A DNA stretch of 64,000 bases from Desulfosudis oleivorans (GTDB lineage: Bacteria > Desulfobacterota > Desulfobacteria > Desulfobacterales > SURF-7): positions 1 through 64,000 of the forward strand of contig DYJC01000006.1 of assembly GCA_020723305.1 (NCBI GenBank), written 5' to 3'. A model generated the notes under the pieces. The model did no database searches. It saw only the letters and a list, made by a program, of their open reading frames with translations, and was not told where the DNA came from. Below are positions 45,475-51,538 of the stretch, in pieces (the stretch's first letter is position 1; the number at the start of each line of letters is the position of its first letter). Both the position numbers and the translations under genes were made by a program.

Positions 45475-48400
45475 TTACTGTTTTTGGTTCTGGACAATAA
45501 ATTCCCCGATCTTTTCCGCAGAGTCTCCAAAAAGAGATTTCATATCCACCAGTTCGAGGAACCGGTCATCCCATTCGATGCTGTTCTCCTGAACAATATT
45601 CTGTATGTGCTCATATTTGCCGCCAAGCGCTTTGGTTTTTACGGAAAGCTCGACACTTTCCTTGAAGCTGATATTCAGAAGCAGTAGATTATCAATTGTA
45701 TTGGAAGCGTTCGATGAATCGGAAATGATCGGAATGACAATGATGCTTCTATCATCTTTCCTGCCTCTTCCAATATAAACATTTCCCTGGCGGACAATAA
45801 TTCGTTTGGTTCCCTTTAACCGGTTGTCATTCTCAATCCTTGAGGGAATAGGCTTTAAAACCCCTTCTTTACGCAAAACAGATATGGTCGTTTCTTCCGT
45901 AGCATCTCCAAGCAGACTTAAATTATCAATTTTATATAAAATCGAACCCTTGATCTCCGAAACAACTCCTTGCAGGTTTTTGAGAACGATGATGTTCCGG
46001 TTGATGAGCCGGGAGATATTGATATCATGGGCAGCCAGTGCATCAAACAGAACTCCTTCAACCTTTTCAATGATCCTGCTGGTTCCGACCGTAACGGTTT
46101 TGGCTTGATGCTTGATCGCATCAACAGGCCGTGCCATGCAATTGATGGCTTCTCCGAGACAGTGAAAAAAATCGTTCAGCATATTCAATGCCGTTCCTTT
46201 TTTTCCGAAATCAAGTTCAAAATCGGAAACCGGAAGTCTTCCAGTCAAATACTTCAGAAGCAGTGTCAGATCGGATGCTGTCGTTAGTCCCATAATTCCG
46301 GGAAATCTGTTTCTGGTTTTTTCCGATCTAAACTCGTTAGAAAAAGCAGCCATTTTTTCTTTAAAGCTTTTCTCCAACACTACTTCGTATACATCCATTC
46401 CCTGATTGGAAAAACCGTCTATGCTCTGTTTGATCCCCTCCCTGGCCTCATGCAAAAAGCGCGACCCATCATTGATTGCCAGCGCTGCATAATACCCCCA
46501 GATATGCCCCACCAGAGTATTTAAAATCGGTGCAAGGTGTTCTCCGATGACAGGCACATGAAAAACATCCTCGGCATAAGGCGCGAATCGATCTTCTCCT
46601 TCATCGGCAATGATGACAGGTAAGGCTTTGTGCGCTTTAAAAATAGCCGTATCCTTGACAATATCTCCAATGACATTACCTCTTGTTCCTGCTGCACAGA
46701 TAATAATCAGCGGTTCGGATGACAGATCAATATGTTTCTTGTCCTCAACAAAATCGGATGAGATGGTCTTATAGCAAAGCTCACTGAGTTTGATCCGGAT
46801 CTCATCTGCAGACGCCTTGTTCGGCCCGCTTCCGACAGCCGCCCAGTAAGTTCTGGTTGTTGCCAGTCTTCCGGCTGAATCACCAATGATAGACTTTTGC
46901 CCAAGAACTTTGGTCATTGCACCAGGCAGATCCAGAAGCTGACGTATTTCATGGGAGATAAAACCCTGCTCTCTACACTCTTTCAGCTGGGCAAAAAAGA
47001 GTCCGAGAATGGCACCGGCAACAATCTGGGAATAAAACGCCTTGGTTGAAGCAACAGACATTTCAATATCCCGCCCGCTGCTTGTATATAGAACGCCATC
47101 CACCTTGAAGGTGATATGGGAATCCCGTCTGTTCACGATGGCAAGGGTAAGCCCTCCCCTCTCCCGAACCATATCCACTGCCCGATTCGTATCGGTTGTT
47201 GTTCCGGATTGAGTGATCGCGACAACTAGGCAGTCCTCCATTCTTTGTCCCTGGTCCAGTTTGGATAGCTTGAATCCGGACAATTCAGAAGCTTTTAATG
47301 CACATATAAACAGGCTAGGATCGTTCAGATAGTATTCCATGATATTTGCACAAGCCTGTGCGGCAACGCCTGCCGTACCCTGCCCTACAAAAAAAATTCT
47401 CCGGATGCGATTCCGGATCAATGCCTCCCGGATGCGCAGGGGCACGGAAGTCTCATCCAGGGTGATCTCATAGCGCTGGTCATCCGACTTATCGATTTTC
47501 CATCGGTTCAGAAGGGTTTTTTCCACAGATACCGGGGCTTCTGAAATCTCCTTTAAAAAATAATGGGAAAATCCCTGACGATCGATATCCCGAGAGGTTA
47601 TCTCTGTATGTTTGATATCATCCGGTCCGAGTTCCAGGGGTGTACCATCGTAATACATCGCCTCTATACCCTCCAGACCGCCGGAGGAATTCTGATCCAG
47701 AATCATAATCTGTCCCTGTGTTTTCCTCCCGCTCCTTCCTTTAACAATCTTCTCGCCGTCCATTTTCAAAAAGTCGGATGTCTCTTCGACAAATCCATAT
47801 ACTTCAGATGTAGGCATATAGTGTTCCGTGCCGATACCGATGAAAACCGCCTGGCCGCTCCCCTTTTGCGCCAGAAAAATTTTTCCAGGTGATAGGTCGG
47901 TATGCATGGAAATGGCATGGGAACCATGAAAATCATTAACGGCAAGCCGGAAGGCCTCTTCCACTGGATGGCCGGCATGCAGATACTTTTGGATCCGGAT
48001 CGGAATGATCTTTGTGTCCGTAGTGATACTCTTATTGATTTTACCGCCATTGTCTTCGTATTCTTTTTTCAGCTCTCGGTAGTTGTCGATGTCTCCATTC
48101 AAACAGATATGGATGGTGTTGTTGTTCTGAGAAGAAAAAGCATCTGCTGTTTTATTGTCAACCGGATGGCAATTGGGTTGTGAAATTTCTCCTACCGATG
48201 CCCATCGGGTATGGGAGGTCACCGTGTAATTGAGATTCTCAAGACCTGAAACCAGGCCCAAAACCGGATCTTCTTCAATCTGTTTTCGCAGATACTGGAT
48301 ATTGTCACCAAGCGCACCGATTTCAGCAGCAACCTTGTAAACCATCATAATCGCAACATGCCTGCTGCTGTTTTTCTTCTGCAGATTATTGATGCTGATT

Positions 48401-50350: not shown

Positions 50351-51538
50351 TTATCCTTTCAGCACCTGATGGATATTCTCAATCCGTTTCTCCATCATTT
50401 CTTCTGTCCATGAGAGTTTGATTTGCATGGAAATTGTTCTTCCCATGATCCGGTCTGATTTGGGCAGATTGATCTTCAAAAAATCCGGACAGTTGGCCAC
50501 GAGCTCAACCGGCATTCTGGCAGCGCCATTCATTTTGTGTAAATGTTCCCACTGTTTTACATAATGCCAGTTGTTGCCATACCAGTAAAAGCAGCCATCC
50601 ACACCGGCGCCGGCAAATTCTGCAACCGCTTTCCGCGCTTTTTTTTCATCCGGAAGGAAAAAGCTTAAAAAAGTGGCGGAGTCCCCTGCTTCATCCGGAA
50701 GTTTCCGAAAAGCGATATCCGGAAGTGCGTTCATACCGTCTTTGATTGCAGCCTTATTCCTTCTCTGGGTATCCAGAATCCAATCCAGCTTTCGCAGCTG
50801 GGCAACACCGACAGCTGCATTCAACTCGCTGATCCGGTAGTTGACACCCAGGATTGGGTGCCCTTCCAGCCCACGATCCTTTCCGAGGTGATCATGTCCG
50901 TGATCCGCATACTGATCCGATAGCGTATAGACCTTCCGGTCATTCGTCACTACTGCGCCACCCTCGCCGCATGTGATTGTTTTTACCGGATCAAAAGAAA
51001 AACAACCAGCCTTTCCAAATGTTCCCAGGCTTTTTCCGCGATAACTTGCGCCGATAGCCTGGCATGTATCTTCGATAAGAATAAGTCCTTTCTGATCACA
51101 CAAGGTCTTGATTTCATCAATCCTTGCCATGCTGCCGCACATATGAACCGGCAGAACAGCTTTGGTTCGCGGGGTCAGTTTTTTTACAATCTCTTCCGGG
51201 TCAAGACACAGGGTTTCATCAATTTCAGAAAATACAGGAACCGCTCCGGCATTGAGTACGGCTTCAACTGTGGCAATAAAAGTGAATGGCGGCACAATGA
51301 CCTCATCACCGGCACCGATTCCGCATGCTGCCAGAGCAACCGAAAGGGCAGCTGTTCCGCTTGAACACAGATGACTGTATGCGGATCCGATTCTTTTGGA
51401 AAGCTCCTGTTCAAAGAGAGCAGCTTTATAATGTCCGTTTCGTGCCTGATCAAAGCCATACCGGAAAAGTACCCCGGTATCGAGTACATCCTGTACTTCC
51501 TTGCGCTCCTCATCTCCAAATATTTCAAATCCAGGCAT
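50351..51538 (-). CDS. kdnA: 8-amino-3,8-dideoxy-Kdo transaminase (KdnA)
   Basis: A DegT/DnrJ/EryC1-type PLP aminotransferase of 395 residues that aminates 8-oxo-Kdo from KdnB, using glutamate, to give Kdo8N for lipopolysaccharide. The PLP lysine lies in [17 protein letters not shown] (about 186) and the glycine/serine-rich [10 protein letters not shown] near 58 is typical. The ATG at 51538 follows GAGGAG at seven bases and the protein begins MPGFEIFG as in KdnA; a GTG nine codons upstream is not needed. kdnB and the giant GlmS-like gene follow directly. Confidence 0.92.

Follow-up and report, generated by a model that had tools for sequence, protein, structure and literature searches.

The window, that is, the whole 64,000-nucleotide stretch of Desulfosudis oleivorans analysed here (contig DYJC01000006.1 of GenBank assembly GCA_020723305.1, positions 1 to 64,000), belongs to a 5.4 Mb draft genome (contig C12; completeness 97.87%) and carries on its minus strand, like all features of the window described below, the genes kdnA and kdnB followed by a gene for a giant GlmS-like protein (45475..49230; 1251 codons plus stop, ATG start). 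The list of open reading frames (ORFs) bears out an earlier reading made from the letters alone (the sequence-only reading), which had noticed a 1251-residue GlmS-like protein 48 nt behind kdnB on the same strand, with its cysteine at residue 52 and no start codon beside it. The gene is matched by the models NF001484 and TIGR01135, and GFAT and GlmS are the top fold matches of its product. Sequence comparisons indicate that the giant is an enlarged form of GlmS which likely does the housekeeping work in most sampled Desulfobacterales, and from which a conserved leader is probably removed.

The giant starts with a leader, or prosegment, of residues 1-51 (49078..49230), in which a weakly modelled helix (residues 2-22 of the predicted structure) is followed by a conserved block that runs up to the cysteine and has a predicted local distance difference test score (pLDDT) of 63-70. 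Cys52 (codon 49075..49077), which presumably acts as the nucleophile at the N-terminus once the enzyme has matured, aligns with Cys1 of E. coli GlmS, and a cysteine is present at this position in 104 of 104 aligned giants. Within the glutaminase domain lie a helical insert 1 (about residues 62-222, 48565..49047; predicted helices 72-226, block pLDDT 79-93 except for one block at 59), the LEVRGRDSAG motif with Arg230, the equivalent of E. coli Arg26 (48523..48552), insert 2 (about residues 238-338, 48217..48519), and the remaining core with HTRWASVG, H355, N378-G379 and D405, recognised by Pfam and residue alignment (47791..48213). The double-SIS isomerase domain with K814, E817 and H833 (46474..47592; Pfam SIS, 50.9 bits) is separated by a further insert (about residues 915-1036, 46123..46488) from a GlmS-like C-tail, RPVDAIKHQAKTVTVGTS, which includes Lys1044, the equivalent of E. 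coli Lys603 (46078..46131), and a C-terminal extension of residues 1052-1251 completes the protein (45478..46077). The motif, insert 2, the third insert and the C-tail were placed by alignment with E. coli GlmS. According to that alignment, with spacings computed by hand, the extra segments comprise about 153 residues between the cysteine and RGxDSAG, about 65 between RGxDSAG and HTRWA, about 35 between glutaminase and isomerase, about 112 between isomerase and C-tail, and about 200 beyond the C-tail. The sequence-only reading had listed extra segments of about 165 and 110 residues and a 190-residue extension; the roughly 65 residues before HTRWA are an addition to that list.

The added parts have few recognisable relatives. 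The best solved relative found with a profile of insert 1 reached an unconvincing E value of 0.024, and a fold search with insert 2 returned weak ferredoxin-like matches only (E 2.3e-3 or worse). A profile of the C-terminal extension built from 23 members matched nothing among solved structures at E up to 1, and none of the 23 members had a Pfam family below E 0.05 in this region. The giant as a whole is recognised by Pfam as SIS plus parts of a class II glutaminase, and by NCBIfam with scores below both cut-offs (NF001484, 241.4 of 381 bits; TIGR01135, 220.6 of 418.05 bits). Weak Pfam matches restricted to one member, such as YtxH (E 0.0002 in one of nine) and weaker ones, look like coiled-coil noise. 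Homologues that are 92-94% identical are found in entries titled Desulfocicer vacuolatum and Desulfobacterium sp., which places the host among the Desulfobacterales.

The residues expected of a GlmS are largely retained. We compared 25 positions, numbered as in E. coli GlmS without recourse to automatic numbering, which drifts where alignment columns are dropped. Of these positions, 19 are unchanged in all 104 aligned giants. These are Cys1, Arg26, Arg73, Trp74, His86, Asn98, Gly99 and Asp123, which we take to be the glutaminase residues, and the isomerase and C-tail positions Gly301, Thr302, Gln348, Ser349, Thr352, Val399, Lys485, Glu488, His504, Ala602 and Lys603, among which Lys485, Glu488 and His504 are taken to be the characteristic residues of the isomerase domain and Lys603 that of the C-tail. 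Thus, the glutaminase set, the three isomerase residues and the C-tail lysine of a GlmS are all found. At one of the six differing or variable positions, Ala299 is replaced by Gly. Structure predictions, built on nine sequences, agree in fold: the isomerase domain model matches human GFAT1 (2v4m_D) with a Z score of 29.4 and a root-mean-square deviation of 3.5 over 323 residues, and scores lower against SIS deaminases and deglycases (Z about 19-25), and the low-confidence model of the whole protein has GFAT and GlmS as its top matches. It is likely, judged from the distribution and replacement described below, that the giant works like GlmS, while its score places it outside the TIGR01135 equivalog.

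Cys52 is followed by GLAG, and the in-frame ATG, GTG or TTG codons upstream of it are an ATG at -51 and an ATG at -20. Of 105 giant genes read, 76 have a conserved leader in front of the cysteine and 28 do not, counts that are not rates because the first 24 regions were picked for short-looking N-termini; one further gene, L053, lacks its 5' end and was neither assigned to a class nor included in the tree. The spacing of the leader is fixed and gap-free back to -25, with Pro at -8 in 75 of the 76 genes, Phe at -9 in 70, Val or Ile at -11 in 74 and Gly at -23 in 62. It is cationic (median net charge +5), and its interpretation as a signal peptide or membrane helix was rejected, as the best 19-residue hydropathy exceeds 1.6 in only 3 of 76. 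One could suppose that the segment is not part of the protein at all and that translation begins right beside the cysteine at a non-standard codon, for the choice of upstream start varies, 3 of the 76 genes have no ATG between -30 and -80, and two (L103 and L105) have CTG at -1. Conservation at the level of residues and at fixed spacing speaks against such a start, as does the absence of ATG, GTG and TTG from -1 in all 76 genes, and we regard it as barely credible.

All 28 leader-less giants, by contrast, carry Met directly before Cys; a codon rule assigned 24 of them, whereas L116-L119, on which the alignment rule had failed, were classified by matching a pattern. On a quick tree (LG+G4, SH-aLRT only, rooted on L116-L119), these Met-Cys starts fall into at least six separate groups within the main clade; seven changes between the two states are needed, and the starred branches force seven. 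With the divergent Met-Cys form as root, one gain of the leader and six losses suffice, a direction which the tree itself does not prove, since change counts alone cannot separate gain from loss. The exact restart at Met-Cys each time is what would be expected if the cysteine has to be the first residue, as is known for PurF. That all 28 leader-less relatives begin exactly in this way supports, by inference, the view that the cysteine must become N-terminal, and the seven switches, for which a single gain with six losses is the simplest account, make removal of the segment before Cys52 the likely maturation step. The sequence-only reading had likewise proposed maturation by cleavage. The four rooting sequences L116, L117, L118 and L119, from two families of the phylum, represent a divergent relative of the giant that is about 1060-1170 codons long, starts with MCGIA and has no leader.

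In PurF of Bacillus subtilis and of some archaea, the catalytic cysteine is exposed by removal of an N-terminal peptide, which is short in B. subtilis, and PurF without an N-terminal cysteine is still able to use ammonia (PMC3261824). In an alternative reading, the leader of the giant might be retained, with the glutaminase half silent or little used and GlcN6P (glucosamine-6-phosphate) made from free ammonia. The equivalent of Cys52 is internal in 76 of the 105 genes, its cleavage is something we infer, and a conserved leader block is what a permanently kept part would show. Nevertheless, the inspected glutaminase residues are invariant in 104 of 104 giants, and a Met directly before Cys in all 28 leader-less genes would be needless if the cysteine did not have to be N-terminal; retention of the leader thus appears unlikely. 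The catalytic cysteine of the same genome's PurF (L140:186-1601, minus strand) is at residue 12, so that its leader, too, would need removal. No leader of this kind in a GlmS was found in the literature, as far as its partly accessible texts go.

An ordinary GlmS over the cut-off was not found in the host genome in a TIGR01135 scan, which detected one in 14 of 14 control genomes. The model matched the giant (209.8 bits), PurF, five asparagine-synthase-like glutaminases and, as a trace, a KpsF-type isomerase, and no GlmS-like protein combining both halves, apart from the giant, was detected in this 97.87% complete genome. The downstream steps are present: glmM scores 574.9 bits, over its cut-off, and GlmU is split into a 410-residue GlmU-like acyltransferase that overlaps glmM and a 254-residue uridyltransferase part on another contig (L137:3457-4689, +, L137:4682-6040, +, and L138:1749-2513, +; contigs C40 and C32). 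The acyltransferase has an unassigned C-terminal part, and the lone uridyltransferase adjoins ATP synthase genes. Two other sources of GlcN6P were considered and rejected. The sole match to PF01182, the family that could have revealed NagB, is a 6-phosphogluconolactonase over the cut-off, and a SIS-type deaminase is not among the four SIS matches of the genome, of which the three besides the giant are KpsF/KdsD-type (over the cut-off) and GmhA-like (below it). With no NagB, no SIS deaminase and no second GlmS, the GlcN6P for GlmM therefore has no other visible source. The sequence-only reading had held that it would be contradicted if homologues of this length were ordinary and unrelated to kdnAB, or by a second normal glmS together with lost activity motifs; double length is indeed ordinary within the order, and a second glmS was not found in the genome.

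The distribution of the two forms was followed in samples of 194 genomes of the order and 297 of the phylum, which are evenly drawn species representatives, interrelated and in many cases incomplete, with a profile of nine giants and with TIGR01135 over 418.05 bits as the definition of ordinary GlmS. In an initial screen that scores a limited number of candidates, the giant profile matched 180 of the 194 order genomes at E up to 1e-150, and the giant is therefore not a chance ORF; the listed giants score about 216-255 bits with TIGR01135. Ordinary GlmS occurs in six of the 194, and only G179 has both forms, its ordinary GlmS being incomplete and on a 5.7 kb contig. In the phylum sample the proportions are reversed, with ordinary GlmS in 234 of 297 genomes, the giant or a relative in 37 (32 near full length, one shortened in G323, and four divergent with 1.06-1.17 thousand residues) and both in one (G372). 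Fisher tests of giant versus ordinary, which ignore kinship, give p values of 5.3e-6 for the order and 5.3e-28 for the phylum. Even sister lineages differ, for f107 contains giants (G263, G295, G323) as well as ordinary GlmS (G227, G396, G477). Hence, where one of the two forms is missing from a genome, the other usually takes its place.

Four genomes (G063, G066, G103, G120) have two giant-profile matches each, several on different contigs, which are possibly paralogues or mixed bins. A GTDB-wide scan restricted to close relatives yielded nine loci titled Desulfobacterales or Deltaproteobacteria or their relatives, from which L008, L009, L010 and L013 were dropped as duplicates and L012 as a fragment; the reading frame of a close relative of the giant is broken at L007:9684, towards its 3' end. 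In the partly accessible literature, no paper on a long GlmS in Desulfobacterales was found.

One genus documents such a replacement. G023, G122 and G171 carry the giant, whereas their congener G085 has no match to the giant profile and an ordinary glmS of 610 codons elsewhere in the genome. G085 keeps the order metG, kdnA, kdnB and the genes past the site of the giant, and a scar at L148:7668-7974 retains the leader-coding end of the giant with the body gone: 290 bases, 91% identical to G023, extend from kdnB through the leader to about seven codons past the cysteine, where the match breaks off, to be picked up again past the 3' end of the giant. A deletion has thus removed the giant from G085, sparing only the 5' end of the gene. 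Its ordinary glmS is no obvious contamination, because 4.5 kb on one flank, the flank that was compared, are 87-92% identical to the three congeners. Short intergenic stretches of this genus (L149:2483-7018, query parts 1834-2025 and 3734-3932) belong to a dispersed repeat of about 200 bases that matches dozens of places in all four genomes.

The genes upstream of the giant are well identified. KdnB, the 3-deoxy-alpha-D-manno-octulosonate (Kdo) 8-oxidase (49279..50346), matches the solved structures 3rf7 (iron-containing alcohol dehydrogenase, E 1.4e-154) and 5k8c (Kdo 8-oxidase, E 2.9e-154), the next match having an E value of 2e-26, and KdnA, the transaminase forming 8-amino-3,8-dideoxy-alpha-D-manno-octulosonate (Kdo8N; 50351..51538), aligns over residues 1-391 with residues 1-391 of 5k8b (E 1.3e-168; next 2.4e-50). 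Both therefore match the named enzymes almost over their full length and far above all others; they are close homologues of the solved proteins and form no part of the giant, beside which they are encoded. Further upstream lie a penicillin-binding-protein (PBP)-like transpeptidase (51706..53175; best match TIGR03423 pbp2, below the cut-off) and a gene that we take from its sequence to be metG-like (53381..55303), so that the conserved cluster reads metG-like, PBP-like transpeptidase, kdnA, kdnB, giant. No Rfam RNA element reached its gathering score between positions 44000 and 54000. The commonest neighbours in 105 loci, several of them likewise named from their sequences, are metG-like (42), kdnB (33, on the same strand as the giant), PBP-like (31), PSP1-like (28), kdnA (21), HolB-like (18), pyrG (18), GlmU-like (15), glmM (9) and kdsB (7) genes.

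Kdo8N is a lipopolysaccharide (LPS) sugar of Shewanella, as described in PMC6357163, and the sequence-only reading had suspected that the giant makes an amino sugar for the same LPS structure. An aminotransferase devoted to an LPS sugar that is produced alongside Kdo8N would fit the close linkage, as anticipated in that reading, of kdnB: among the 44 genomes having both genes, 34 have them no more than 2.5 kb apart (positions compared by hand), and in 33 loci they share a strand. It would also fit the presence of kdsB beside the giant in seven of 105 loci. It is opposed by the kdnB search at E up to 1e-80, which found kdnB in 45 of the 80 genomes searched, 44 of them with the giant, and no match in 32 of the 76 giant-bearing genomes. 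It is also opposed by the lack of another detected GlcN6P source in the genome, by the giant being its sole two-domain GlmS-like protein, by the mutual replacement with ordinary GlmS, and by some other lineages, where glmM and a gene for a GlmU-like acyltransferase adjoin the giant. The association with Kdo8N is genuine without being a requirement, and a dedicated LPS enzyme is very improbable.

Taken together, it is highly probable, on the evidence of sequence and genome comparison, that the giant is the sole housekeeping GlcN6P synthase of its host and of most sampled Desulfobacterales, with its leader cut off before Cys52. This interpretation is favoured because the giant is the only protein with both halves, glmM and a split GlmU are present, no other source of GlcN6P is visible, giant and ordinary GlmS hardly ever occur together and were swapped in G085, 19 of 25 residues are conserved, leader-less genes start with Met-Cys, and glmM or the GlmU-like gene stands near the giant at some loci. 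Several observations weigh against it. Ser303, which presumably belongs to the sugar-phosphate loop, is Ala in 104 of 104 giants, Thr76 is replaced by Ser, His77 by Val, Ile, Met or Asn, and Cys300 by Gln or His, and Ser347 is Thr in 31 of 100 giants including the copy in the window. The giant stays below the curated TIGR01135 cut-off (220.6 versus 418.05 bits) and is thus not a member of the equivalog by score. The structure prediction proposed for the inserts gave poor models (mean pLDDT 62.6 and 58.7, predicted template modelling scores 0.54 and 0.38), in which insert 1 is predicted to be helical. Neither form was found in eight of the 194 order genomes, four of them 92-98% complete, G106 has only a match below the cut-off, and neither form exceeded the cut-off in 27 of the 297 phylum genomes. 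Finally, there is no cleavage consensus at -1, which is Cys in 31 of 76 leaders and mixed in the remainder.

The housekeeping enzyme would be synthesized as a precursor, and removal of its conserved 51-residue leader just before Cys52, probably by self-cleavage as is thought for PurF-type enzymes, would expose the nucleophile. The N-terminal nucleophile (Ntn) glutaminase domain would then take ammonia from glutamine and pass it to fructose-6-phosphate held in the double-SIS isomerase domain, and the product GlcN6P would feed GlmM and the split GlmU for the synthesis of uridine diphosphate N-acetylglucosamine, and thus of peptidoglycan and lipid A. The genes that supply amino sugar and Kdo or Kdo8N for the envelope are probably expressed together, because kdnAB or kdsB are frequent members of the conserved cluster. 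A role in assembly or regulation is probable for the inserts and for the C-terminal domain of 200 residues. More tentatively, GlmS might be a zymogen across the order, the leader acting as a switch or assembly aid that keeps the glutaminase off until the giant has folded or assembled; we consider this a doubtful though reasonable possibility. If true, precursor processing would gate the entry to amino sugar synthesis, and the switch would have been lost several times.

Compared with the GlmS/GFAT family (TIGR01135; E. coli GlmS, human GFAT1), the giant shares the order of glutaminase, double-SIS domain and C-tail, most inspected positions, the isomerase fold and the place in the pathway of its genome, but it is about twice as long, has five extra segments, a C-tail that is not C-terminal, the Ser303 to Ala exchange, a leader in most genes read and a score below the cut-off. 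With PurF (PMC3261824), the giant shares an internally encoded nucleophile cysteine that would have to be exposed by removal of a peptide, but its acceptor domain is SIS and not phosphoribosyltransferase, and its leader, 51 residues long, shows sequence conservation between families of the order.

Amino sugar synthesis for the cell wall and lipid A begins with the reaction of GlmS, an enzyme that has been studied as a drug target. Because NCBIfam and Pfam recognise the giant only in part, automatic pathway reconstruction may report the GlmS step as missing. Leaders in many giants and exact Met-Cys starts in several lineages constitute a natural experiment on how the nucleophile of an Ntn glutaminase is exposed. 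In this abundant order of sulfate reducers, the textbook GlmS, as defined by TIGR01135, is missing from most of the genomes sampled, which have a variant of double size instead.

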